Assembly: GCA_034231615.1 (NCBI GenBank)
Contig: CM067298.1
Location: 67,909,591 to 67,973,590 of the forward strand
Length of the DNA stretch: 64,000 nucleotides
Origin: Meghimatium bilineatum
Lineage: Eukaryota > Mollusca > Gastropoda > Stylommatophora > Philomycidae
Direction: 5' to 3'
Each line of letters opens with the position of its first letter. The stretch's first letter is position 1. This document shows positions 1-63,299 of the stretch, one piece after another. The notes under the pieces were generated by a model. That model did no database searches and had not been told where the DNA came from. It saw nothing but the letters and a program-made list of their open reading frames with translations. A program made the translations under genes and the position numbers.

Positions 1-61
1 TACATGAAAAATACCAGCAGTATTATTTATCAAGCAAGCTTACACAGTATCAACTACTCAC

Positions 62-13420: not shown

Positions 13421-13800
13421 TCTTCTGTAAAATTTGTTTTAAAAAAACACTTAAGTTTCTCTTCAATTGTCATACTCTCACATTTGTACAAAATAATATC
13501 TATTATTATATATTTATACAAGTTGATCTTCACTATTGTACTTATTCTATTTTTCTATATGATATTCAATCAAGACATTGCAGCCTAGGCTATTTCGAGT
13601 CTGGTATTGATTTCTTTGTTACTGATTCCATAGCTGCTCATATAAGATCCTAAATATTATTTGCTGCATAGAGAAGAATGGATTCAGGTTCATAAAATAA
13701 AAGCACATGCCTGCAACATTACTATTCCTTGCAGAGAATGTAGATTAAAAACGAACAGATTTAAAAATTAATTATCTAATAGAATTATGCAATAGGGTAT
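13421..13800. other. HELQ intron 5, no gene seen
   Basis: AT-rich sequence between the RTE-like fragment and the minisatellite. No frame or recognised repeat. Confidence 0.5.
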
Positions 13801-13802
13801 GA

Positions 13803-15203
13803 TGTTATGATGATGACTCACAGATGGCTATGATGATGACTCGCAGATGACTATGATGATGACTCGCAGGTGGCTATGATGACTCACAGGTGGCTATGAT
13901 GACGACTCACAGATGGCTATTATGACATCCAGGTGGCTATGATGATGACTCAAAGGTGGCTATGATGACTCACAGATGGCTATGATGATGACTCACAGAT
14001 GGCCATGATGATGACTCACAGGTGGCTATGATGATGACTCATAGATGGCTATAATGATGACTCACAGATGGCTATGATGATGACTCACAGATGGCTATGA
14101 TGATGACTCATAGATGGCTATAATGATGACTCACAGATGGCTATGATGATGACTTGCAGATGGGTATGATGATGACTCACAGATGGCTATGATGACTCAC
14201 AGGTGGCTATGATGACTCACAGGTGGATATGATGATGACTCGCAGATGGCTATGATGATGACTACAGATGGCTATGATGATGACTCACAGGTGGCTATGA
14301 TGATGACTCATAGATGGCTATGATGATGACTCACAGATGGCTATGATGACTCACAGGTGGCTATGATGACTCACAGATGGCTATGATGATGACTCACAGA
14401 TGGCTATTATGACTCACAGGTGGCTATGATGATGACTCACAGGTGGCTATGATGATGACTCGCAGATGGCTATGATGATGACTACAGATGGCTATGATGA
14501 TGACTCACAGGTGGCTATGATGATGACTCACAGATGGCTATGATGATGACTCACAGATGGCTATGATGACTCACATGTGGCTATGATGATTAATCGCAGA
14601 TGGCTATGATGATGACTACAGATGGCTATGATGATGACTCACAGATGGCTATGATGATGACTCACAGGTGGCTATGATGATGACTCGCAGATGGCTATGA
14701 TGATGACTCACAGATGGCTCTGATGATGACTCACAGATGGCTATGATGATGACTCACAGGTGGCTATGATGATGACTCACAGATGGCTATGATGATGACT
14801 CACAGATGGCTATGATGATGGCTCACAGATGGCTATGATGATGACTCGCAGGTGGCTATGATGATGACTACAGATGGCTATGATGATGACTCACAGGTGG
14901 CTATGATGATGGCTCACAGGTGGCTATGATGATGGCTCACAGATGGCTATGATGATGACTCACAGATGGCTATGATGATGACTCACAGGTGGCTATGATG
15001 ATGACTCACAGATGGCTATGATGATGACTCACAGATGGCTATGATGATGGCTCACAGATGGCTATGATGATGACTCGCAGGTGGCTATGATGATGACTAC
15101 AGATGGCTATGATGATGACTCACAGGTGGCTATGATGATGGCTCACAGGTGGCTATGATGATGGCTCACAGATGGCTATGATGATGGCTCACAGATGGCT
15201 TTG
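13803..15203. repeat. 23-bp minisatellite, about 60 copies, with 229-bp higher-order repeat
   Basis: Units of the form GGCTATGATGATGACTCACAGAT, with 20-bp variants lacking one GAT and variants TCGCAG, ACTACAG and GGCTCAC. Near the right end a longer block is duplicated: the variant order at 14,821-14,960 repeats at 15,050-15,189, a shift of 229 bp. The unit length is not a multiple of three and no long frame runs through it. It lies in HELQ intron 5, about 540 bp from exon 5. Confidence 0.96.
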
Positions 15204-15743
15204 TGGGTGATGGTGAGAAATCTAATGAGATTTTCTAGTTAGTGTATATGGTGGGGTTATTATCATGCATAACAGAATATAAGACAACTACTTCCAGTAT
15301 GAGCATAATAATTAAACCATTACCACTCTCCAATAGCTCTTGCAGGATTCATTTACAAGGGTAATTATCATGACCAGTTCTCAGTTCATGCTTCAAAAGA
15401 ACCATAACAGCTGGTTTCAGTACAAGTGAATGACATCTATAGCTGGTTTTACATGAATATAAGGCTTGGATATGCAAGCATTTATAATGTTGAGAGATCT
15501 AATTCAGTTGCTTGATGTGGTGATGCTGGACTTCCAGCCGCTCAAGAATAATCTCTTTAGTGAAATTTTTAGTTATTCTCAGAATTCTTCTAAGAATCTA
15601 CATCTCTGTGGACTCCAGAGAATTAAAGAAGGATGCAAAAAAAAATAATCATTGAAATCCTGAAGGAAGATAGTTTATGCATTAAACACAAATATTATGT
15701 TCTTTATTCCAAAGTTTAAATGGAAGAATATGCTAGTACTTAC
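15204..15743. other. HELQ intron 5 (3' side as read on plus), no gene seen
   Basis: Unique-looking intron sequence; no repeat or coding match recognised. Confidence 0.5.
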
Positions 15744-17224: not shown

Positions 17225-17412
17225 TGCATTATATTTATGGCTGCCCCATCCCATATAGGGTCAGTGACCCAAGGCATGCTGAAGTCAGATGTGTCAGGCA
17301 GAAAGGTGCTGATATCACAGCAATGCTGTAAACCATGACACAACGCATTCCGTTCTCAGACTACTTCCTGCTATTCTGCAGGAGTTTGAGAACGAACGCA
17401 GAAGAAGAATAA
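17225..17412 (+). mobile_element. GAA-tailed SINE-like repeat, 3' portion
   Basis: ATATAGGGTCAGTGACCCA, GGATATGTGTCAGG-like, ATGCTGTAAACCATGACACA, CTGCAGGAGTTTGAGAACG, then AACGCAGAAGAAGAA. Nearly collinear with 26,337-26,500. Together with the minus-strand head at 16,805-17,000 it forms a head-to-head pair. Confidence 0.75.
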
Positions 17413-26124: not shown

Positions 26125-26510
26125 GTAAATACTGAAAGTTTCCCATTAGGGAACTTCAGGGAGATGGTGCATGTAGGTGTGTGTGTGATAAAGGCAGCAT
26201 GACCCTGCTGTAAAAACATGTACCAATCATGTGTTGCCAGGGCCCAAAAGGGGAGCAAAGAATAGCAACACTGTTTACCTTCCACTATATGTTGTAAAAG
26301 GTGACTAAGGAGGTTATGGGATGGAGTTGGCTGTCCTATCCCATATAGGGTCAGTGACCCAAAGCCATGCTGAAGCCGGATGTGTCAGGTTGAAAGGTGC
26401 AGATATCGCAACAATGCTGTAAACCATGACACAACGCATTCCGTTCTCCGGACTACATCCTGCTAATCTGCAGGAGTTTGAGAATGAACGCAGAAGAAGA
26501 AAAAGAAGAA
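26125..26510 (+). mobile_element. GAA-tailed SINE-like repeat, most complete copy
   Basis: Longest copy of this non-coding family. The head holds a 7-bp inverted pair, GTGTTGC and GCAACAC, around AGGGCCCAAAAGGGG (26,233-26,271); then GTGACTAAGGAGGTTATGGG, ATATAGGGTCAGTGACCCA, GGATGTGTCAGG, ATGCTGTAAACCATGACACA, CTGCAGGAGTTTGAGAA, and a GAAGAAGAAAAAGAAGAAA tail. No tRNA boxes are clear. The AACGCAGAAGAAGAA end resembles the 3' end of LINE family N (GAACGAAAGAAGAAGAA), which suggests mobilisation by a similar LINE machinery. Confidence 0.75.
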
Positions 26511-26884
26511 ACCGTGTACAGGGTGAGTTTTTAAAATGTATTCTCCGACAGAAAAAAACTCAGTCCTTATAAATTTAAGTAGGAAGGTTCAATTCCCGTC
26601 AGCAGTAAGAATCATAAATTTAAACTTGGACTGTACAGATTGAGACCGATACTGCTCTAACCTCTCACTCATGCATCACACTATTGACATGTCATTAAAC
26701 TCTCCTCCAAATAGCATTTCTCAAAAAATGCTTTTGTCGATACATACTTAGGGAACACCTACACAAATGATGGACTGCGAACTGCAGAGAAAATAAAAAC
26801 TCTGAAAATAACTTTATACTCAGAGATCCGTTCCAGATATCTTCCTCCTTTTATGTAGTAAGAATCAGCAGGATTATGTGCAAA

Positions 26885-33114: not shown

Positions 33115-33125
33115 ATCTCAATGAC
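33115..33125. repeat. Target-site duplication, left (family N copy 1)
   Basis: ATCTCAATGAC; right copy ATCTCAACGAC at 37,214-37,224 (one mismatch). Confidence 0.8.
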
Positions 33126-33200
33126 ACCCATCGAGGCCAGCTCCTTGGCGTGGAGATGGGGCTTAGTCCAGCCAGCAGAGGCTGGAAACTAAGACTGGCC
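33126..33200 (+). ncRNA. HDV-like self-cleaving ribozyme at LINE 5' end (predicted)
   Basis: The first 75 nt fit the nested double-pseudoknot plan of HDV-like ribozymes. P1: 33,127-33,131 (CCCAT) with 33,156-33,160 (ATGGG). P2: 33,135-33,140 (GGCCAG) with 33,195-33,200 (CTGGCC). P3, directly after P2: 33,141-33,144 (CTCC) with 33,152-33,155 (GGAG), abutting P1'. P1.1: GC at 33,148-33,149 with GC at 33,161-33,162. P4: 33,168-33,173 (CCAGCC) with 33,180-33,185 (GGCTGG). The J4/2 strand reads AAACTAAGA, giving the C-N-R-A pattern with candidate catalytic C at 33,189. Such ribozymes are known at the 5' ends of R2, RTE and trypanosome L1Tc/ingi-type LINEs, where they release the RNA from upstream transcript. 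Cleavage itself is inferred. Confidence 0.78.
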
Positions 33201-36200
33201 GGGCCCTCCCACATTCGGGCAGGACCACAGTCTTGCCTAGCAAGTAAAGGTGCTGAAGTCAGCGACATTTGGCCAGAAGGCGCACTGCAACAGTCAGAAT
33301 GTCATGCATTATCGCACATGAAGATCTATATCTGCATTACCCCGTTATAGTGCTAACCCTGTGACGACTCACCAGGCAGGAGTAGCACCGGGCCCTATAC
33401 CTCGAAAGGGCCCACCACATACGACTGGAGGTCCTCTTCGATTGCCTTGTGGAGCCAGGAGGCACAAGAGTAATATCACTGACCAACAAATATTACCAAC
33501 CAATGAGACATCACTTACAATAATGCACTGGAATGCTGAGGGTGTAAATAGCAAAAAAGATGGCTTTAGCAAGAAATTAGAATTAGAAAACACCCTTCAC
33601 AAGGAACAGGTCAGCATTTGTTGCATACAAGAGACACACCTCAGCAAAGATGTAGCCTTTAAAATTGCAGGTTATCAGTGCTTTAGAACTGATCGAATAG
33701 ACAGAAGAAAAGGAGGTATACTAACTCTAGTCAAAAACAATATCAGCGCACATCAAACTGAGCTATACATGGAAGGAGCAGAATATCAGGTCCTTCAACT
33801 AAAGACCAAGAACACAGACTTCAACCTACTAAATTATTATTGTCCAAATGACCAGTCCCTTTCCCTGGACACAATACCGTACAAAGGAAGACTGATAGTA
33901 TGTGGAGATTTTAATAGTCACTCACAAAGCTGGGGGTTATGACCACATGGATAAAAGAGGAGAAGAACTTGAAAGCTGGCAAGACGATAAATGTCTTCTA
34001 TTGCTTAATACGCCAAAAGATCCTCCAACATACTACTCAAGAGCATGGCAAACCACTTCCACACCAGACTTGGCATTGTACTCAGCAGACCTAAACTGGG
34101 AAATCAATAGAACAGTGGGGAAGCAACTTGGAGGTAGCGACCATCGACCAGTCCTCCTTAGTATTAAAAATGAACTCACAGGAAATGCATGTAGCCTTCC
34201 AAGATGGAATTATAAAAAAGCAAATTGGGGACTATTTAAACACCGCAGTAGTGTTTTAGCTGGACAAATAGAAATGGAAGGAAAAGACATAAACGCCATA
34301 GTCAAAGAGTTCAATAAATGTATTCATCAAGCTGCCAAGGAAGCAATACCAAGAGGAGCACGCAAACAATACAAGCCATACTGGAGTGAACAACTAGAAC
34401 TGCTGCAAGAGGAATTAGAAAAAGCACGGACGGAAGTGGAAAATAACCCAAGCCAGGAACATCACAACAAACATCAACACGCAAAAGCTATATTCCAAAG
34501 AGCCAAACTAGAAGCTAGAAGAAAGAGCTGGAAAGAGAAAACAGAATCCTTAAATTTTGAAAAGGATGGAAGAAAACTGTGGAAACTGGTCAAACAACTA
34601 AATGATGAGGGAACAGGAAGAAGCACAAACATAACACTCGTACAGAATGGCAAAATGATTACAGGAAAGCAAGCAGTAGATAATTTCGCTAGGATATTTA
34701 CTCAAGACTGCAATATTGAAATTAGTCCAGAAAAATAGCATACAGTGCGGAGCAACCAAAAAAGTAAATTGGAACATGCTCAGACTAGAATCAGTGATGA
34801 AAACAGCACAGATGAAATTATGGATACATTGTTCACATATAGTGAATTTAGAATTAGCAGTCTCTAAACTAAAGCTAAATAAGTCCCCAGGAATTGATGA
34901 AATATCAAATGAAATGATAAAGAATCTAGGAACAACAGCCAGAAGGAAACTATTGGACATCCTAAATATTAGCTGGACTACTGGGAAAATACCACAAATC
35001 TGGAGAGAATCAATTATGGTCCCTTTGCTTAAACCTGGAAAAGATGGAACAACACCAACTAGCTACAGACCAATTAGTCTTACAAGTTGCCTGTGCAAAA
35101 CAATGGAGCGCATCATAAACCTAAGACTAAAATTTCACCTGGAAAGTAGAAAATACCTTGCACCACAGCAGGCAGGTTTCAGGCAATGCTACTCCACAGA
35201 GGATCAAACCATATACCTCTCACAGGAAATTGAGGATGCTTTCCAAGACAAAAAAATCAGTTTTAGTGGCATGGATTGATTTACAGAAGGCCTTTGATAA
35301 AGTATGGAAAGAAGGATTGCTTCAAAAAATGAGAAACTACAAGATATGTGGAAATATGTATAGATGGACGAAAGCCTTTCTTCATAATAGAAGAGCTAGA
35401 GTACAAGTAAATGGCAAAAAAAGTAGGAAAGTATTACTACGCCATGGAGTGCCTCAAGGAGGAGTTCTATCACCCACTCTTTTTCTCATATTTATCAATG
35501 ATCTAATTGAAGAAATACCATGTGGAACTAAGGCAGCACTATATGCAGATGACTTAGTTCTATGGTGCACACATGAGAGCGCCATGGTTACCACAAAAAT
35601 GCTTCAGAGAGCCATGGACATTTTGACTAATTGGGCTGACAAATGGTGTGTAAGTATCAATATAGAGAAGTCAGCAACAACCCTTTTTACACTTTCACCA
35701 CAACAAAGAGCAGGAAACATCTATGTAAATAAAACTATCTTAAAGGTAGATGACCAACCCACATATCTTGGTGTAACATTTGATGCCAAAATGACATGGA
35801 AACATATCAACAAAGCAGAAACAATGGCTAGAAGGAAGATAGCTTTACTAAGAAAACTGAGTGGGACAACTTGGGGAGCTAATGAAAGAATTCTAAAAAA
35901 TGTATACCAACAAGCCATTCGACCACACTTGGAATATGGTTCTACAGCATGGAGTTCATCATCAAGCACTACACTACACAACCTAGATAGAGTACAGAAC
36001 CAAGCACTTAGAATCATTACAGGCGCAATGAGATCCACACCAATCATAGAAATGCAGAATATTGAAGGGATGCAGTCATTGAAAGAGCGTAGAGATACTA
36101 AAATTATAATTCATGGAGAAAAGTTTCTTTCCCACCATAGTCACCCAATGAAGGAAAGATTCCAGCATCTATCACAAGGACGGCTTAAAAGAAGCAGCTT

Positions 36201-37213
36201 CATACACCAGGCCAAGCGTCTACGTAGACAGGTATCGGATCTACCAGAGGTAACAATACCACTGACATCTCAACCAGAACACACCCCATGGGAAAAACGG
36301 ACATGCCTACCAGTGACCATACAAACAACAGTAGCAGGTATGCATGGGGATGAACATCAGAATAATCTGCAGAAAAGAGTAGCAGCTCTCAGTTTCCTTG
36401 ATGATGTTTACCCAAGTGATCTATGGACCAGAGTATATACAGATGGATCAGCACAGAATGCAGTAAAAAATGGAGGAAGTGGTGTATATGTAGAATACCC
36501 AGATGGCACCACTGATACCACTTGTATACCAACAGGGAATTACTGCAACAACTATGACTCTGAAGTCAAAGCTATTTATACAGCTGCAGAGAAACTGTTA
36601 ACATTGGACAGGACCTCACACCCTATTGTAATACTTACAGATGCAAGGTCAGTACTAGAGGCATTACAATCCAATAAACTTCCAGACTTAAAAGAGGTAT
36701 TGTCCATAGTACAAAATAGGTGTAGAGTTATACTGCAATGGATTCCATCACACTGTGGAATAGCAGGAAATGAGAGAGCTGATCAACTCGCCAAGGAAGG
36801 TGCTAACATGCAGCAACCGGATGTACCAATCAGCTATCACCAAAAGAAATCCATGATAAAGGCACAACGAAAGCCAAACTTACCTCCACGGGATGACTAC
36901 CACCTACTTAGCAGACAAGAACAGGTCATCATATTTCGACTGAGAACTGGACACAATAGACTAAACAGCCATATGTATACAAAATTTAAAATTGGCACAA
37001 CAACAAAGTGTAATTGTGGACAAGTCAACCAGACTTCAGAACATATCCTTCAAGAATGTGCAAACTATGACACATTAAGATGCACATACTGGCCTTCTGA
37101 TACACCAATGAATGTTAAACTTTATGGTACAAAACAAGAAATGGAAAACACTGTCCAATTTATACAAGAAACAACACTGCAGATATAGACATTATTAGCG
37201 AACGAAAGAAGAA
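33126..37213 (+). mobile_element. LINE family N copy 1, full length
   Basis: 4,088-bp I-superfamily LINE. Leader with ribozyme, then a GC-rich CACCAGGCAGG and GGGCCC...GGGCCC region (33,371-33,412). Endonuclease: IMHWNAEGVNSKKDGF, CCIQETHLS, YCPNDQ, VCGDFNSHSQSWG, GGSDHRPVLL. RT: LNKSPGIDEISNEM, PTSYRPISL, QQAGFRQCYSTEDQ, AWIDLQKAFDKVWKEGL, HGVPQGGVLSPTLFL, YADDLVLWC (near 35,541). RNase H: YTDGSAQNAVKNGG (36,436), SEVKAIYTAAEKL, LTDARSVLEAL, SHCGIAGNERADQLAKEG. C-terminus CNCGQVNQTSEHILQEC, stop at 37,186, GAACGAAAGAAGAA tail. Only about three frame shifts (near 33,935, 34,735 and 35,265), and the last 2 kb is one open frame of 676 codons, so it is young. It sits in HELQ intron 1, opposite strand, 95 bp from exon 1. 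Confidence 0.95.
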
Positions 37214-37308
37214 ATCTCAACGACCTAATTTTTTTTGTAGTGTCAAATTCTTCATCATGCTTATAATGCCAATGAACATTATAGAAATGAATGAAAATTC
37301 GAACTTAC

Positions 37309-37368: not shown

Positions 37369-37531
37369 TACTACCTAATTTGAGCCTGTATTATACAATA
37401 AAAAGATGAGTTTCTGATCCACTATTACACTTGCTGCATTTCATATTATACACACATACAAACTATGCAATATAAACATTTTGCTATCCGTAATTCTAAT
37501 TATAATAATTTTTTAAAAATCTATAATTATT

Positions 37532-38340
37532 TCTTCTTCTTCTTTCATTCAATTGAAACATGTCTATATCTGTAATTCTGTAGCCTGAATAAAACTCACT
37601 GTCTTTTATAGTTCACACAGTGGTCCGTAGAGCTTTGATTCCAGTGTTGTTTCCTCTGGCCAATATGTCTGCCTCTGCGTTTCATACTCACAACACTCTT
37701 GAAGTATATGTTTGGCGCTCTGTGCTGGCTGTCCACATGGCAGTGTTGCTAATCTTTTATTTTGTGCACATGTGACTGTGGAGTCTGTTGTGTCCCATTC
37801 TGAGGAGTAGAATTTCAACTCTTCTGATCTGTTCATAATGTGGTAGTCATCTTATGTTGGTGTTTGTGGCTTTCTTATTGACTTGATAATATGTGTTTTC
37901 TGATGGTAAGTGATTGGTACGTCTGGTTGGTCTTTGGCAGCACATTCCTTAGCCAGTTGGTTTGATTTTTCATTTCCTGGTATTCCACAGTGAGAGGGTA
38001 CAATGCATAGTTACCCTATACTGGCAAGATAACTCATTAAGTAGTTACTGTAAGTTTGTCAGTTTTCCAGACTGGAGAGCTTGAAGCACTGACCTTGCAT
38101 CTGTCAGGAATACCACGGGCTGTGGGCCAGGGTTGGAGTTCAGTAGTTTTTCATTTGTCACCCTAATTGCCTGAATTTCTGCATCATAATTATTGCACAA
38201 TTTCCCTATTGGTGTTCTGATCGTATCTCTAGGCTTGTGTGGATATTCTATACATACACCTCCATTTCTCACTGCATTCTGTGCTGACCCAACTATGTAT
38301 ACTCTGACCCATGTCTTGTGGATATTCATCGTCCAGGATG
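37532..38340 (-). mobile_element. LINE family N, 5'-truncated 3' copy
   Basis: Minus-strand RNase H (VYIVGSAQNAVRNGG, NNYDAEIQAIRVTNEKLL, LTDARSVLQALQSGK) and C-terminus (CGQPAQSAKHILQECCEYE, YWPEETTLESKLYG), ending in GAAAGAAGAAGAAGAAAT. The first RNase H Asp is replaced (YIVGS for YTDGS). Flanked by TAATTATT at 37,524-37,531 and 38,341-38,348, a likely 8-bp target duplication. It lies just upstream of HELQ exon 1. Confidence 0.85.
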
Positions 38341-38684: not shown

Positions 38685-38990
38685 ATTATTAACTATTTTT
38701 GCTCTTCTGCATGTGCTCATAAACTCCTACAGATTAGCAGGATTCCGTTGAGAAAACAGATAGAATTGTGTCATGATTTACAGCTTGGCTGTAATATCTG
38801 CACCTTTTGGCCTGACACAACCGATTTCAGAATGGTTTCCGAGTCATCTGACTCTCTATTAGATGGGACAGAGCAAACTCCCCCCCCCAAAAAACAACAA
38901 CTAATCCTTAGTCATCTCTTATGACATGCATTGCAGGTCACCATTCCTTGCTCCTCTTTTTACCCCAGCTACAATGACTTACTTTATAAA
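38685..38990 (-). mobile_element. GAA-tailed SINE-like repeat
   Basis: The minus strand reads GCTGGGGTAAAAAGAGGAGC, AAGAGATGACTAAGGATTAG, ATAGAGAGTCAGATGAC, GGTTGTGTCAGGCC, AAAAGGTGCAGATATTACAG, CTGTAAATCATGACACA, TCCTGCTAATCTGTAGG. Full order of the family; tail decayed. Contains a 9-C run (plus strand, 38,881). Confidence 0.7.
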
Positions 38991-39165: not shown

Positions 39166-39177
39166 GGTCATGCCGGC
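39166..39177. repeat. Target-site duplication, left (short N derivative)
   Basis: GGTCATGCCGGC, repeated exactly at 39,425-39,436. Confidence 0.9.
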
Positions 39178-39250
39178 CCTATCGAGGCCAGCACCTAGAA
39201 GTGGTGATGGGCGTAGATCAGAAATCAGGGGCTGGAAACTAAAACTGGTC
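39178..39250 (+). ncRNA. HDV-like ribozyme, copy in the short derivative
   Basis: Same fold as 33,126-33,200 and starting at the exact insertion edge. P3 is CACC/GGTG (39,192-39,195 with 39,203-39,206) against CTCC/GGAG in copy 1: both sides of one pair changed. P1 keeps pairing through a T-G wobble and P2 through a G-T wobble. Candidate catalytic C at 39,239. The P4 stem is reduced, so activity today is doubtful. Confidence 0.68.
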
Positions 39251-39424
39251 AGGCAGTCCCACTTAAGCAGGACCACAATCCTACCCAAGTAAAAAGGGTG
39301 CTGAAGACGGAGACTAGCCAAAAGGTGCACAATAATCAGGATGCCATGTATAAAACACAATGGGAACATGTCTATATCCAATAAACAGATATAGTAATTT
39401 TTCAAGTGAACAAAAGATGAAGAC
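39178..39424 (+). mobile_element. Short N derivative: LINE 5' end joined to LINE 3' end (RIME-like)
   Basis: 247-bp insertion bounded by a perfect 12-bp target duplication. Bases 39,178 to about 39,380 match the family N leader, including the ribozyme: P1 CCTAT/ATGGG, P2 GGCCAG/CTGGTC, P3 CACC/GGTG, J4/2 AAACTAAAA; P4 is decayed. About 39,386-39,424 (CAGATATAG ... CAAGTGAACAAAAGATGAAGA) matches the last 39 bp of the LINE, beginning at the final codons. All coding sequence is missing. With its own target duplication it was copied as a unit, like trypanosome RIME relative to ingi. Confidence 0.85.
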
Positions 39425-39436
39425 GGTCATGCCGGC

Positions 39437-40690: not shown

Positions 40691-42057
40691 TAGGTTTATA
40701 TTTTCCTATCTTTCATGTAAATTATTTGGATGTCAAATAATTAGAAAAAAAATTCATAACTTTCTTCAGGAAGGATGTACAGTACGATACTTACTTGGTT
40801 GAGGTATCGTTAAATTACAATTTTCAAGTGCTGTTATAGTTTAGCTGTAGTAGTAGGCCTACTAAAAACTTTAAAAAACTACTTCATTTAAATTTAATGA
40901 ACAGGCCCTATACTGCCTATAGCTAGATAGGCATACAGTACAGATAATAAAGTTAAATAAAGATGTCTAATTATAAACCACGAATCACAATCACACTACT
41001 CAAAGTTTAGGCTAGTATTTAGTAGTAGGGGACTATTAATTATTAAATATAGTAACGTACATTTACAACATAGTCATTGCTTAAATTAATGATTAGCCTA
41101 CGGATTACCAATGTTGCGATCAATCATTGATCATATCTATCATTCACGCATAGGCCTATGATGATAGGCCTACTATATATATATTAATATGCCATAATAT
41201 TATATGGTGATCAGGTCTATGAATGATGATTGTAGTCTATTGTCATTGTAGACTGTAGACGTAGCGACTGTGTCACTGTACTGGCCTACTCTGTACTCAC
41301 TGTACTGTAAGTTACTGACTGTAAGTTGAACTGTAAGTACTAAGTTACAGTGTAACTGTAATCGTAGTAGAGATGGGAATTGTCCGCCGATATTAAAATC
41401 AGTAGGCCTTTGCAAAACACAAAACTGTATTATATGACTATCTGTGCAATCTGTGAGTAAGCTAAATTTGAGTCTAGGGCATACTTAATAGGGTCTAATA
41501 CTTTGAAATGTAAGCTTAACTTATGATTAAAATAGATCTTTAGTTTAAATTTTGTGCAACTTAGGAAGTTTAGAAAGTTACATAGTAAAGGAATCAGAAT
41601 AATCTCCCTTTAGTTAACTGAGTGTGTGTGGTGTTTTGAGAAATATGAAAGTGCACAAATTTTAATCAAATATAGGCCTATTACGTTTTGATGTTACTAT
41701 AATGTAAATAGTCGAATTGACTACAAAGTACATACGACTTGTTGGAGATACTCAAGCTGACGCTTAACATAAGCATCTATTATTAGACGTTCTTAGTTAA
41801 AGTAAAATTTTACGGTGTAAGTGTAGGCCGTGTAGGACCAATAGTGCCAGTAATTGTAATACTAATACAATTGAATTACAATACACTTGAATACACTCAA
41901 ATAATACTCAATACTGGCAATACTCAGTAATTGAGTAATACTCATTAATACTGACTGGCGATGATCATTCATGGTGTAGTGTGACTAAAAACTGTAACTA
42001 GTCTCTCAGTTGTTAGGATTAGCAGCAATTCAGTACCATAAATACGAGAATACGAGT
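40691..42057. other. Upstream region of UBOX5; AGGCCTA-rich, no gene seen
   Basis: Contains further TAGGCCTA-type palindromic words (GATGATAGGCCTACTATATA near 41,160) and quasi-repeats of ACTGTAAGT (41,270-41,350) and AATACTCA (41,895-41,955). A TTGTTAG near 42,010 could be a splice acceptor for a leader intron. The promoters of both divergent genes should lie between 37,390 and 42,057, but no TATA or initiator can be fixed. Confidence 0.45.
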
Positions 42058-43734
42058 ATGTTGATCAATTTTGCATTAGATGTTGTTGGTACAAAGATTA
42101 CTAGCGATAAAGTAAGCACAGATGGCTACGATTGCTCAAATCTAATTAGTAATAACTGGCATTTAAGGAGAAAGGGATTTTTAGCAGAATACTTTATCAA
42201 GCCACCAGTGAACCTTACATTTGAGTTTCCCTGCAATATTTGCATTCATCACGTATTTGTTACTCCTTGTGTGGGACAGCAGAGGTCATCTCACTTGGAG
42301 CTGTATTCTACTTCAAAATTGCCTCAAAGTGCAGCAAGTTACTTTCAAAAACAGAAGCCTATTGTATCGAAGGGGAACACAGCTGCCTTGCCAGATGGAT
42401 ATGCAGTTTCAAAGGCACAATCTAACTCACATCATAATCCTTCTTTATTTTGCCATATATCGAAAATTTCTGTCCAAGATGGTGACCGCATATGTTTTTC
42501 CAATTCTAAGGTCAATGCCTTATTTAACAGTGATATGCCTACAGATAATTTTCCAGCATCAAATCACAGAGCAGAAATACAATGCTTCAGGCAGAATATA
42601 ATTTCTGCATCAAGTCATCTAACACTACGTATAGTAAGAACTGTAAGTGGTTCTGCCGCAGCAGTAAGTAGTATTGATATCTGGGGTTTAGCAGCATTGT
42701 CTGTCCCTGCTTCTATCAGAGATGATATTGTCAACAAATATACCAGTTTTATAAATCATTCATTGACTAAAAAGGATAGTGAGATAGTAAAACATGACAA
42801 AAAAGTTGTTTGCATACCTACTTCTGTGTCAGACATAAGTTCTGCAGATGACAGTCTTGAGATTCCTGAAGACTTTATAGACCCTATTACATGTGATGTT
42901 ATGGCAGTACCTATGTTGTTACCAAGTGGAAAGACTGTAGATCTATCTACTTTAGATCATTACTTTAATGTTGAAGCTTCTTATGGAAGACAACCTAGAG
43001 ATCCATTTACTGGATTACAGTTCTCAAACACAAGTAAACCTATACCAAATGGTGGCCTCAAAGCAAGAATAGACAAGTTTCTTATGGAACACTGTAGTGA
43101 TGCAGCAACTTCAACAATTGCCAGGACTGTGCGCTCAGGAAACAGAGATGTACCTCTTCTTGGGAAACGGAAAAAATCAACAGATTCTAGTGATGGAGTG
43201 TCATCTTTGGTTTCTCAAAATTCTGATAGACATTTAATTGCAACCAATAATGATTGCTCAAAAGTGAGTATAAGTGAAGGTTTTCAACTCATAAATTTGT
43301 TGTCAGTAGAAAGTCAGAAATCAAAAACACTTCCTCAACATAAAAATCTTCTTCATGCAAGAAAAAATGATTATTACACAGAAACATCACATCAGTGCGC
43401 ACAGCATCAGCAGACTGTGAATGTTTGTAGTGGAACAAATAATGGCCACTCCCATGAAACTCAGTTAAAAAATAGCCTGGATAGTGCATTGTCTTCGATC
43501 CTCAGCAGCATGCCTTCGTATTTATCCAAATGTGAAAGTTCTACAAACAGTAATTTGTGTTCCTTATGCAAGCAAACACTAGCAGTGGACAAGGCATCAT
43601 ATATAACACCTTGTCATCATTATATGTGTCGGGAGTGTTTGACATCTGACAGTGCTAAAACAGTAATCACATGTGGAGTTTGTGGACATATTTTTTCATC
43701 AAGTAATGTTTTAAGAAGACATCAAATAGTTTAG
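42058..43734 (+). CDS. UBOX5: UBOX5/RNF37-like E3 ubiquitin ligase, intronless
   Basis: 558-residue E3 ubiquitin ligase. Start chosen at ATG 42,058 (MLINFALD, A at -3), matching vertebrate MVINLCLP; the frame is open further upstream but without ATG. N-terminal domain: STDGYDCSNLISNNW and AEYFIKPPVNLTFEFP, as in human UBOX5. Linker, then U-box at about 269-345 (EDFIDPITCDVMAVPMLLPS; ASYGRQPRDPFTGLQF; LKARIDKFLMEH), which recruits E2 enzymes without zinc. Ser/Asn-rich linker, LDSALSSILSSMPSYLSK. C-terminal C3HC4 RING with C501, C504, C519, H521, C524, C527, C539, C542. All domains lie in one exon, unlike the multi-exon vertebrate gene and unlike neighbouring HELQ: either true intron loss or an intact retrogene. 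No canonical AATAAA stands close downstream. Confidence 0.95.
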   Translation: MLINFALDVVGTKITSDKVSTDGYDCSNLISNNWHLRRKGFLAEYFIKPPVNLTFEFPCNICIHHVFVTPCVGQQRSSHLELYSTSKLPQSAASYFQKQKPIVSKGNTAALPDGYAVSKAQSNSHHNPSLFCHISKISVQDGDRICFSNSKVNALFNSDMPTDNFPASNHRAEIQCFRQNIISASSHLTLRIVRTVSGSAAAVSSIDIWGLAALSVPASIRDDIVNKYTSFINHSLTKKDSEIVKHDKKVVCIPTSVSDISSADDSLEIPEDFIDPITCDVMAVPMLLPSGKTVDLSTLDHYFNVEASYGRQPRDPFTGLQFSNTSKPIPNGGLKARIDKFLMEHCSDAATSTIARTVRSGNRDVPLLGKRKKSTDSSDGVSSLVSQNSDRHLIATNNDCSKVSISEGFQLINLLSVESQKSKTLPQHKNLLHARKNDYYTETSHQCAQHQQTVNVCSGTNNGHSHETQLKNSLDSALSSILSSMPSYLSKCESSTNSNLCSLCKQTLAVDKASYITPCHHYMCRECLTSDSAKTVITCGVCGHIFSSSNVLRRHQIV

Positions 43735-44467: not shown

Positions 44468-46337
44468 GGGTAGCCGGGGGCAATGTTGCGCGTTTTTCAC
44501 TGTTTTCCGTATTCTGACAAATAGACTTAACTATGAGAGACCAAACTAGCAGCAGTGTGTAGCTTATCCATCCATCTAACAATCGCCAGGGTATTTACAA
44601 CATACAATCACGTTTAGTCCGTAGAATGAGATTTTATGAACATGAGTATAATCCCACCTTTGCCCCAATTTCTGGGGCAAACACGCGCTGGCAAAAAACA
44701 ATTACAAAATAATGGGAAAATTGACAAAACCAGCAAAATAACAACGTCACTTCCTATCTAAACATAGTCAGTCACAATGTGGGAAGATAATAGAGCACAA
44801 AGACTAGGCATATGTATCTTTATGTAACTTTAATACGAAAAAAAATGAAAAAACGTAAATATGAAAAACAAAATTTAATACAGAGAATGGGTGCTTAGAT
44901 CCGTTTAAAACTATAACAACGTGTTGGAGTGCTCTATAAAGCGTTTGACTATAATTTCAACTATCTATGAATAGCGGAGGTCGTGCATCTATGATCAGCG
45001 GAGATCGTACAACTATGACCGGCGGCAATTATGCATCTATGACTGGCGGAGATTGTGCATCTATGAATAGCGGAGATTGTGCATCTATGACTGGCGGAGA
45101 TTGTGCATCTATGACTAGCGTAGATTGTGCATCTATGACTGGCGGAGATTGTGCATCTATGAATAGCGGAGATTGTGCATCTATGACTGGCGGAGATTGT
45201 GCATCTATGACTGGCGGAGATTGTGCATCTATGACTGGCGGAGATTGTGCATCTATGACTGGCGGAGATTGTGCATCTATGACTGGCGGAGATTGTGCAT
45301 CTATGACTGGCGGAGAACGTGCATCTATAAATGGCGGAGAACGTGCATCTATGACTGGCGGAGATTGTGCATCTATGAATAGAGGAGATCGTGCATCTAT
45401 GAATAGAGGAAATCGTGCATCTATGAATAGAGGAGATCGTGCATCTATGAATAGAGGAAATCGTGCATCTATTAATAGAGGAGATCGTGCATCTATGAAT
45501 AGCGGAGAACGTGCATCTATGAATAGCCGGAAACGTGCATTTATGAATAGCTGAGATCGTGCATTTATGTATAGCGGAGATCGTGCATCGGCGGAGGTCG
45601 TGCATATATTATCGGCGGAGGTCGACCAACTATGACCCATGAAGATTGTGCAGCTATAACCGACAGGGATCGTGCAACTATGAATAGCGGAGAACGTGCA
45701 TCTATTATCGGCGGAGACCGTACAACTATGACCCGTGGAGATTGTGCATCTGTGATCGGAAGGGATTGTGCATCTATAGCAGCGACTGCTTCATTTTCAG
45801 TCAGTGGCATCATTTTCTCAATTTTCCGTTTGTAATTCCTAAAAAGAAACATAAAGTGACAATAAAATATTGGTTTAAATATTTGGCAACATGAGAGGGA
45901 AGTGACTGGGGCAAACATGCGCAGTCAGTCAGCAGCGCATGTTTGCCCCGTCAGTGTGCGCGGCGTTACCCCAAAATCACACTGTTCACAATTTTTATAA
46001 AATATCATGAAAACAAAAATTATCTTGACAATGTAACATGCTTAATAACTTAACAATACAATATAGTTTTCAGTTCAGACATGTAAAATAACATGACAGT
46101 AATGATAACAGAGGACAAAGAGTGAGAATTGGAAAAAAAGTTAGATCGAGAACGTTAAAAAAAGAATTTACCTCATAGCTCAAAAATGACCTGCCCATGA
46201 CTGATGAAAATTCGTTGTGCGACAGAAACGGATGTTAGCGTCCGGCGTGGCCACGTGGTTTGCGGGAAAAACACAAAGTTCCGGAAAAAAACGACTGCGA
46301 ATCTTTGCCCCCAGCGCATCTTTACCCCCGGCTACCC
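44468..46337. mobile_element. TA-flanked non-autonomous DNA element carrying a minisatellite
   Basis: 1,870 bp bounded by TA dinucleotides and inverted ends GGGTAGCCGGGGGCAA (left) and TTTACCCCCGGCTACCC (right). No transposase. The motif GGGGCAAACATGCGC, or close variants, occurs near both ends and inside: 44,477, 44,673 (plus an inverted TTTGCCCC at 44,659), the inverted pair 45,908-45,922/45,935-45,949, and 46,303. About 820 bp of its interior is a 24-bp minisatellite. The TA flanks suit Tc1/mariner-like or related transposases, but the family cannot be named. Confidence 0.82.
44963..45785. repeat. 24-bp minisatellite, about 34 copies
   Basis: Units of the form ATGACTGGCGGAGATTGTGC plus ATCT. 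Because 24 is divisible by three, long open frames appear on both strands (195 codons on plus with period MTGGDCAS; 214 and 203 on minus with periods HRCTISAS and DAQSPPVI). Variants are regional: TGGCGGAGATTG units dominate 45,050-45,360 and AATAGAGGAGATCG units 45,370-45,480, showing local homogenisation. The right 200 bp is more diverged. Confidence 0.95.
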
Positions 46338-58013: not shown

Positions 58014-58667
58014 CCATTGTGTTTTGTGCGTGTCATCCTGATTATCTGTGCACCTTTTGGCTGGATGCCTCCGTCTTCAGCACTCTGCTTATTTGGCAGA
58101 ACTATGGTCCTGCTCGAGTGGGACTGCCCGACCAGTCTTAGTTTCCAGCCCCTGATGGCTGAACTAAGCCCCATCACCACTGCATTATGCTGGCCTCGAT
58201 GGGGTCAACTTTCGAGGGCCTCGAAAGCAGACCAACTGGCTAAGGAAGGTGCTGCCGAAGACCAACCAGATATACCAATCACCTACCATCAGAAAAAAAC
58301 AGATGATCAAGTCAATAAGAAAGCCACAAACACCAACACAAGATGATATCACATTATGAACAGATCAGAACAAGTTATAATTCTACGTCTCAGAACAGGA
58401 CACAACCGACTCCGCAGTCACATGTATACAAAGTTCAAGATTGGCAACATGGCCATGTGTACATGTGGACAGGCAGCACAGAGTGTCAAACATATACTTC
58501 AAGAGTGTTCTGAGCATGAAACGCTGAGGCAGACATATTGGCCAGAGGAAACAACAATGGAATCAAAACTCTGTGGGACACTGTATGAACTACAAAAGAC
58601 AGTGAGTTTTATTAAGGAGACAGAATTACAGATATAGACATGTTTCAAGTGAACGAAAGAAGAAGAA
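58014..58667. mobile_element. LINE family N, twin-primed (5'-inverted) copy
   Basis: One insertion with a single 13-bp target duplication, made of two parts in opposite orientation. 58,014-58,205 is the first ~190 bp of the element on minus, with the true 5' end at the junction; about 58,224-58,667 is the 3' end on plus (ADQLAKEGA of RNase H, RTGHNRLRSHMYTKFKIG, MCTCGQAAQSVKHILQECSE, stop, GAACGAAAGAAGAAGAA tail). The junction carries the palindrome CTTTCGAGG-G-CCTCGAAAG (58,209-58,227). The 93-codon plus-strand C-terminal frame is open. Confidence 0.92.
58130..58205 (-). ncRNA. HDV-like ribozyme, copy in the twin-primed insertion
   Basis: Minus strand from 58,205: P1 CCCCAT/ATGGGG (6 bp, the best P1 of the three copies), P2 GGCCAG/CTGGTC, P4 CAGCC/GGCTG, J4/2 AAACTAAGA identical to copy 1. 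P3 is weak here (CAT/GTG). The start of P1 coincides with the junction, that is, with the 5' end of the reverse-transcribed RNA. Confidence 0.68.
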
Positions 58668-62901: not shown

Positions 62902-62913
62902 ACACTACAAAAT
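62902..62913. repeat. Target-site duplication, left (short 3' N copy)
   Basis: ACACTACAAAAT, repeated exactly at 63,202-63,213. Confidence 0.92.
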
Positions 62914-63201
62914 CTACGTCTCAGAACAGGACACAACCGGCTCCGCAGTCACATGTATACAAAGTTCAAGATTGGCAACACAGCCATGTGTACATGTGGA
63001 CAGGCAGCACAGAGTGCCAAACAATATACTTCAAGAGTGTTCTGAGCATGAAACGCTGAGGCAGACATATTGGCCAGAGGAAACATCACTGGAATCAAAA
63101 CTCTATGGGACACTGTATGAACTACAAAAGACAGTGAGTTTTATTAAGGAGACAGAATTACAGATATAGACATGTTTCAAGTGAACGAAAGAAGAAGAAG
63201 A
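62914..63201 (+). mobile_element. LINE family N, 288-bp 3' fragment
   Basis: 5'-truncated insertion with perfect 12-bp target duplication. It begins in CTACGTCTCAGAACAGGACA and runs to the GAACGAAAGAAGAAGAAG tail. About 97% identical to the same part of the twin-primed copy (58,378-58,667), so both are recent. One extra base inside the Cys/His region shifts the frame. Confidence 0.93.
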
Positions 63202-63299
63202 ACACTACAAAATTAGATGACAAAAGTCATCTGTTGCAGTGAAAGGTACATTGTGCCTTAATTACTTTCATCATCTATGGCAGCAAAAATGTTAAAGCC

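Follow-up and report, generated by a model that had tools for sequence, protein, structure and literature searches.

A predicted HDV-like ribozyme at the 5' end of a LINE and of its short derivative in the gastropod Meghimatium bilineatum

How the exact 5' ends of dispersed LINEs arise is only partly understood. Some LINEs are described as having a promoter placed precisely at their 5' terminus, others as relying on co-transcription and ribozymes (PMC3774820). The same question is raised by three related leader sequences in a 64,000-nt window of Meghimatium bilineatum (the whole stretch of DNA analysed here, from contig CM067298.1), which is part of the searched assembly of 1.61 Gb in 32 contigs. 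The original prediction, made from the window, placed an HDV-like fold at the 5' end of an RNase H-bearing LINE, and both the window copies and those found across the genome support this placement. Our analysis indicates that element nt 1-75 very probably constitute an HDV-like self-cleaving ribozyme that sets the 5' end of this LINE and of a short element derived from it, with cleavage being predicted from sequence features.

Leader copies in the window and their predicted fold

LINE copy A (33126..37213, + strand) is flanked by 11-nt target-site duplications (TSDs) that differ by one mismatch (left, 33115..33125, +, ATCTCAATGAC; right, 37214..37224, +, ATCTCAACGAC). It consists of a leader of approximately 196 nt followed by an EN-RT-RNase H coding region that is broken by frameshifts and stops. 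The presence of RNase H, part of the original prediction, was borne out by the detected domains (EN, PF14529; RT, PF00078; RNase H, PF00075), and the domain order, together with the relatives of the protein, is consistent with membership in the I superfamily. The LINE protein has 747 relatives; among the best 120, the named ones are nearly all from molluscs and include proteins of Bradybaena similaris (66% over 59% of the query), Littorina, Batillaria and Elysia. One relative (P0038, 50% identity) is filed under the gill symbiont of the bivalve Solemya velum and is probably host contamination. Further 3' fragments, from this LINE or one related to it, are located at 37531-37968 (-) and 62910-63202 (+) (repeats D5, D6, I2, I3 and I10).

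The first 75 nt of copy A (33126..33200, +) can be drawn with all the elements originally claimed, namely P1, P2, P3, P1.1, P4 and CTAA in J4/2, so that the sequence has the capacity for a five-helix double pseudoknot. P1 (33126-33132/33155-33161) starts with a mismatched A-G pair in copy A. P2 (33135-33140/33195-33200) is paired in 100% of the cells across the three window copies, and the P3 hairpin (33142..33154) comprises the helix 33142-33144/33152-33154 and a 7-nt L3 (33145-33151) that contains G25. U20 and G25 of L3 are core positions in HDV numbering. The motif CGTG (element nt 24-27, +) spans L3 and the 3' strand of P3. P1.1 is a single pair between C37 (33162) and G22 of L3 (33147), P4 forms the hairpin 33168..33185 (33168-33173/33180-33185), and J4/2 (33186-33194) contains the putative catalytic C33189 (C64) within CTAA. 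A covariance model built from the three window copies scores them at 101-110 bits (108 bits for copy A, which is itself in the model), compared with 9.9 bits for the next match in the window; a sequence pattern recovered the same three copies and nothing in 100 shuffles.

Copy B (39177..39424, +) is a 248-nt element that combines a LINE-like ribozyme leader with a LINE-like 3' tail and is bounded by identical TSDs (39166..39176 and 39425-39435, +, GGTCATGCCGG). Its 3' end aligns with the LINE tail at 58.6 kb with a score of 53 (the best of 300 shuffles scored 29) and, more weakly, with the tail of LINE A (score 31, reached by one of 300 shuffles). ARAGORN, which detects intact tRNAs alone, found no tRNA in the window. 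Because the head of copy B is a LINE-like leader, LINE-derived short element is a better name for it than SINE. Another, SINE-like family in the window (17230-17411, 26230-26512 and 38700-38960, -) ends in GAACGCAGAAGAAGAA with a LINE-like tail; a stretch of about 34 nt in this family resembles the copy C leader at a borderline level. A link between the leader and the SINE body at 17268/26359 was considered and rejected: of the three pairs compared, one showed borderline similarity (score reached by 3 of 300 shuffles), and in the others 48 and 190 of 300 shuffles did as well.

Copy C (58014..58204, -) is a ribozyme-bearing leader that comes from an older lineage and makes up the inverted 5' portion of a single insertion enclosed by identical 13-nt TSDs (58001-58013/58668-58680, ATTACCACAGTTT). 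The sense 3' part (58223..58667, +; left edge approximate) extends, as read by eye, from the RNase H region to the tail, forms the direct repeat D5 with the 3' region of LINE A (36930-37043), and is separated from the inverted part by about 18 nt of filler with a small palindrome, the layout of a 5' inversion (twin priming). One P3 pair of copy C is broken. The only further copy in the 100 kb flanking the window (L206:1516-1432) has two broken P2 pairs.

The three copies thus start at 33126 (+), 39177 (+) and 58204 (-); the original prediction found all three but placed the latter two starts one nucleotide away, at 39178 and 58205. It was right in having the fold begin at the insertion boundary, given that TSDs abut the starts of copies A and B, and in noting a P3 pair that switches between T-A and A-T among the copies. 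The expected cleavage site, at the first nucleotide of P1, coincides with the element 5' end as positioned by the TSD boundaries. The fold, its position and the LINE of the original prediction are likewise supported, but the prediction missed that copy B belongs to a numerous short family and that copy C is an inverted 5' part.

Other features of the window include tandem arrays at 356-1403, 13783-15272 and 44843-45831 (units of 44, 23 and 24 nt, respectively) and a long ORF (42010-43734, +) with DUF5918, a U-box and a weak RING match, which presumably represents a gene resembling RNF37/UBOX5.

Genomic families and a distant relative

Searches of the assembly with the leaders of copies A, B and C gave 2879, 3010 and 642 first-look candidates, respectively, counts that are unconfirmed and come from lists that may overlap; 40 matches were scored for each query. 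The young LINE sample comprises the 20 best-scoring of the 39 other scored matches to copy A, the short-family sample the 39 other scored matches to copy B, and the older-lineage sample 20 copies fetched from the 40 scored matches to copy C. Because the copies were picked by similarity to the queries, conservation is overstated in all three sets. The 15 nt upstream of the copies are unrelated in each set (mean identity 0.30-0.34).

The young LINE copies have sharp 5' ends. The copy A query reached 27 nt upstream of element nt 2, and 32 of the 40 scored matches begin at nt 2 (the query itself carries a mutated nt 1), with the other eight, including the window itself, beginning 3-27 nt earlier. 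All 20 young copies start with CCCCATC and are identical over the first 85 nt; since C occupies nt 1 in every one, A33126 of copy A is a mutation and P1 of the young family has 7 bp. Nineteen of the 20 are flanked by recognisable TSDs of 11-13 nt (L203 gave none), with the boundary exactly at C1 in 11, one base further in four where the target base itself is C, and 1-2 nt short of C1 in four. These 19 copies, with L203 excluded, show a mean pairwise divergence of 0.47%, and 12 of them retain a single 1288-aa open frame, whose ATG lies at element nt 197.

Copy B, retrieved together with 39 other scored matches at 82-86%, is a member of an abundant non-autonomous family of about 250 nt. CCCCATC starts 23 of the 39 copies, and exact TSDs of 9 nt or more flank 21, of which 14 place the boundary at C1. 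The copies are decayed, seven of the 39 keeping all 23 pairs of the fold. C64 is present in 36, G25 in 37 and U20 in 29 of the 39.

The older lineage was recovered with a query beginning at nt 1, so that its matches (39 of the 40 scored reach nt 1 and one reaches nt 3) are shown to extend to this position rather than to stop there. C1, C64 and CTAA are present in all 20 copies, and G25 in 19; position 20, where HDV has U20, reads G in 11 copies, A in seven and T in two. P1 is intact in 20, P2 and P1.1 in 19 each, and P3 and P4 in 17 each, with all pairs kept in 13 copies. A LINE 5'-region marker was found downstream in six copies exactly and in ten by a looser test, and accordingly this lineage consists at least partly of LINEs. 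Five of the 20 gave TSDs, as most 3' ends lie outside the fetched sequence. One copy, L255, is an internally deleted derivative with its own 12-nt TSD.

Comparison of the LINE master sequence with the short-family majority shows how the pairs were kept between lineages. The two differ at eight of 76 positions, and none of the 23 pairs is broken in either. Positions 17 and 29 changed together, retaining a P3 pair through the same T-A/A-T exchange as among the window copies; at positions 43 and 74, C is replaced with T opposite G, which preserves pairing, and the other four differences fall in L3 and L4. When eight random changes were simulated, 0.45% of the trials broke no pair, and 0.18% also included a two-sided compensation. 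The original prediction had looked to an alignment of genomic copies for compensated pair changes, and the master sequences, with no broken pairs and one swapped P3 pair, are consistent with it.

A scan guided by the RT identified six distant RT matches in viral contigs and 50 in genome contigs. One of the latter, L007, is a 4.3-kb contig filed under the Thiotrichales MAG BB2 that encodes an RT 29% identical to that of the window LINE and a protein with the 2A-like motif GDVETNPGP; L007 is a eukaryotic LINE and likely a contaminant of the bacterial MAG. Near its 5' end lies the only match on this contig to a strict descriptor that combines the HDV-like topology with the HDV core, that is, U at L3-1, G at L3-6 and a P1.1 pair (L007:88-154; nt 88 is the putative element start). 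The predicted helices are P1 GGTCCA/TGGACT, P2 GAGTACA/TGTACTC and P3 GCC/GGT, with a 7-nt L3, a 6-bp P4 and CAAA in J4/2; P1.1 is C-G, as opposed to G-C in the window LINE. In viral contigs, neither a 19-mer from the J4/2 region nor the 28-nt start of L1Tc had a match; a 14-mer gave at least 120, but such a query is too short to be meaningful.

What sets the 5' end

The sequence itself, the sharp 5' ends, the TSDs and the retention of the pairs and of the core C across lineages are observed; we infer that the RNA folds as drawn, that it is cleaved, and that cleavage processes the element 5' end. RNA passing through the element, whether initiated close by or reading in from upstream, would fold into the P1-P2-P3-P1.1-P4 structure, in which C64 of J4/2 would help to cleave at the phosphate immediately 5' of C1. 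The cut would leave LINE or short-element RNA with C1 as its first nucleotide, and target-primed reverse transcription of this RNA would produce full-length copies ending exactly at C1.

Alternatively, an internal Pol II promoter could start transcription at C1 and thereby set the 5' end, as is the case for the Pr77 promoter of L1Tc with its downstream CGTG, the leader folding while no ribozyme acts. Indeed, CGTG occupies +24..27 in both the LINE master and L007, close to +25..28 in L1Tc, where the ribozyme overlaps the promoter (PMC4748587). Given that promoter and ribozyme coexist in L1Tc, both may hold in the gastropod LINE as well. However, the majority sequences of the short family and of the older lineage read AGTG and nevertheless have the same 5' ends, and a promoter leaves P2, the compensated P3 pair and the conserved CTAA unexplained; that a promoter acts instead of a ribozyme is, in our assessment, unlikely.

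The leader could also form two plain hairpins, P1 and a P4 extended to 12 bp by CTTAGT/ACTAAG, that serve in translation or in binding proteins; C64 would then be paired and catalysis absent. The extended P4 is intact in both master sequences, whose nested MFE structures include it, as do those of copies A and C; it is absent from that of copy B, where three of the six extension pairs are broken without compensation and CTAA is nonetheless kept. CTAA itself, although retained in every older-lineage copy, is able to pair with CTTAG in this helix. In rough energy estimates that leave the cost of the pseudoknot uncounted, P1, P3 and P4 of the LINE contribute -24.2 and the P2 duplex a further -10.1, against an MFE of -35.5 kcal/mol; the corresponding values for the short-family majority, with the same cost uncounted, are -21.1 and -7.4 against -29.6 kcal/mol. 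At this level of modelling, the energies do not separate the longer P4 from the pseudoknot. The pairing of C64 in the longer P4, along with the retention of U20 in two of the 20 older-lineage copies, argues against a simple ribozyme picture. Two hairpins would, however, not account for P2, a 6-bp helix that shows a GC/GU change, and by inspection L007 has no contiguous extension of P4; we consider this explanation quite improbable.

Searches with existing models and with descriptors bear on whether a ribozyme-like fold could arise fortuitously. Rfam models yielded no match in the whole window at the gathering thresholds, and at E<=10, a threshold used around copy A alone, four matches, none of them to an HDV family. 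For the trypanosomatid forms, the criteria by which Webb et al. screened have been deemed too restrictive (PMC4035085). A loose topological descriptor gave six matches in the window compared with a mean of 6.4 in 200 shuffles, which is not significant, so that topology alone is no evidence. The strict descriptor gave three matches, compared with a mean of 0.12 in 400 shuffles (45 of which had at least one): 33126, 39178 (one nucleotide into the element, with a P1 of 6 bp) and 42067. The last of these falls within the cellular U-box ORF, at no element start, and is taken as chance; the 100-kb flanks contain one match, L205:8317, at no known element start. Of the searches suggested with the original prediction, those with Rfam models found no HDV family, and the strict descriptor located two of the three element starts to within 1 nt. 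Neither the loose nor the strict descriptor matches copy C or the flanking copy L206:1516-1432. All 20 young LINE copies match the strict descriptor, compared with two of the 39 short copies, plausibly because the latter are decayed; the short-family majority satisfies its core and pairing terms in a version of the test that did not require P4. That the fold is a chance resemblance, in line with the loose-descriptor counts and with a three-copy covariation no better than in shuffled alignments (268/500), is hardly credible given strict matches no more than 1 nt from two element starts where 0.12 are expected per window, another at the 5' end of L007, and the simulated frequency of 0.0018 for the changes between the LINE master and the short majority.

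Relation to known ribozymes and significance

HDV-like ribozymes at LINE 5' ends are already established in R2, L1Tc/ingi and other LINEs (PMC3774820, PMC7761336, PMC4035085), and among these, the self-cleaving ribozyme that we propose is closest to the trypanosomatid L1Tc/ingi (Pr77) type, the Pr77-hallmark group of L1TcRz, NARTc and SIDER. Both occupy nt 1 of a LINE with EN, RT and RNase H domains and recur in short non-autonomous relatives, and in both P1 starts at C1, which is the mapped first nucleotide in five L1Tc/ingi-type ribozymes, most of this type having three consecutive GC pairs in P1 (PMC4035085). CGTG stands at +25..28 in L1Tc and close to this position in the LINE master and L007, and the short-family and older-lineage majorities have AGTG. 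J1.1/4 and J4/2 may also be similar in sequence between the two. Other differences are the hosts, trypanosomatids as opposed to an animal, and the 2A-like sequence that L1Tc carries downstream of its leader, perhaps not a clade-wide feature (PMC4748587); no 2A motif was seen in the leader and N-terminus of the young LINE, as judged from the first 600 nt of one copy in three frames. When compared directly with the first 28 nt of L1Tc, a clear signal of similarity appears in copy B only (its score was reached by two of 5000 shuffles) and is weak for the three-copy consensus, copy A and copy C (80, 406 and 412 of 5000, respectively).

In R2, as proposed here, an HDV-like fold sets the 5' end of a LINE, and internally deleted non-autonomous derivatives (SIDEs) are known in arthropods (PMC3414825, PMC3774820), of which R2Dwi_SIDE bears an HDV-like ribozyme (PMC4035085). 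R2 inserts site-specifically in rDNA, whereas the gastropod LINE is dispersed, with TSDs of 11-13 nt. The orientation of the P1 GC pairs in the R2/HDV type is opposite to that in the trypanosomatid type (PMC4035085), and the gastropod LINE, with C on the 5' side of P1, differs from R2 and HDV in this respect. HDV, CPEB3 and other HDV-like ribozymes share a double pseudoknot, cleavage at the first nucleotide of P1, a core in L3 and J4/2, and a P1.1 of one or two pairs (PMC4908430). The fold predicted here is likewise a double pseudoknot, with the first P1 nucleotide at the element 5' end; it differs from HDV and CPEB3 in a P1 that starts with C, a single P1.1 pair and the lack of an Rfam match.

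With regard to molluscs, Matetovici et al. reportedly described in 2016 short retrotransposons with a LINE-derived 5' end, said to be without mention of a ribozyme, and the copy B family resembles these in being short with such a 5' end. Ingi elements are abundant in several gastropods according to a survey whose main text does not contain the word ribozyme (PMC11203168). Among the matches listed from titles and abstract starts in the open-licence literature, there was no report of a molluscan HDV-like ribozyme; nor did we find an open-licence paper linking Ingi, ribozyme and Aplysia, or one retrieved by phrase on LINE-derived 5' ends. As a tentative scenario, a 5' ribozyme with an embedded CGTG might be ancestral to the Ingi-like part of the I superfamily (L1Tc/ingi, the gastropod LINE and L007) and might also head a numerous short parasite that retains only the leader and tail of the LINE.

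The locus thus adds a well-supported member, with predicted cleavage, to a known class of HDV-type RNA. It presents a young LINE family with exact 5' ends at the predicted cleavage position of the ribozyme, and a short derivative that retains the ribozyme. If the ribozyme cuts, 5' processing of the L1Tc/ingi type would extend from trypanosomes to animals, and the LINE and the short element would offer two diverged natural variants for comparison.
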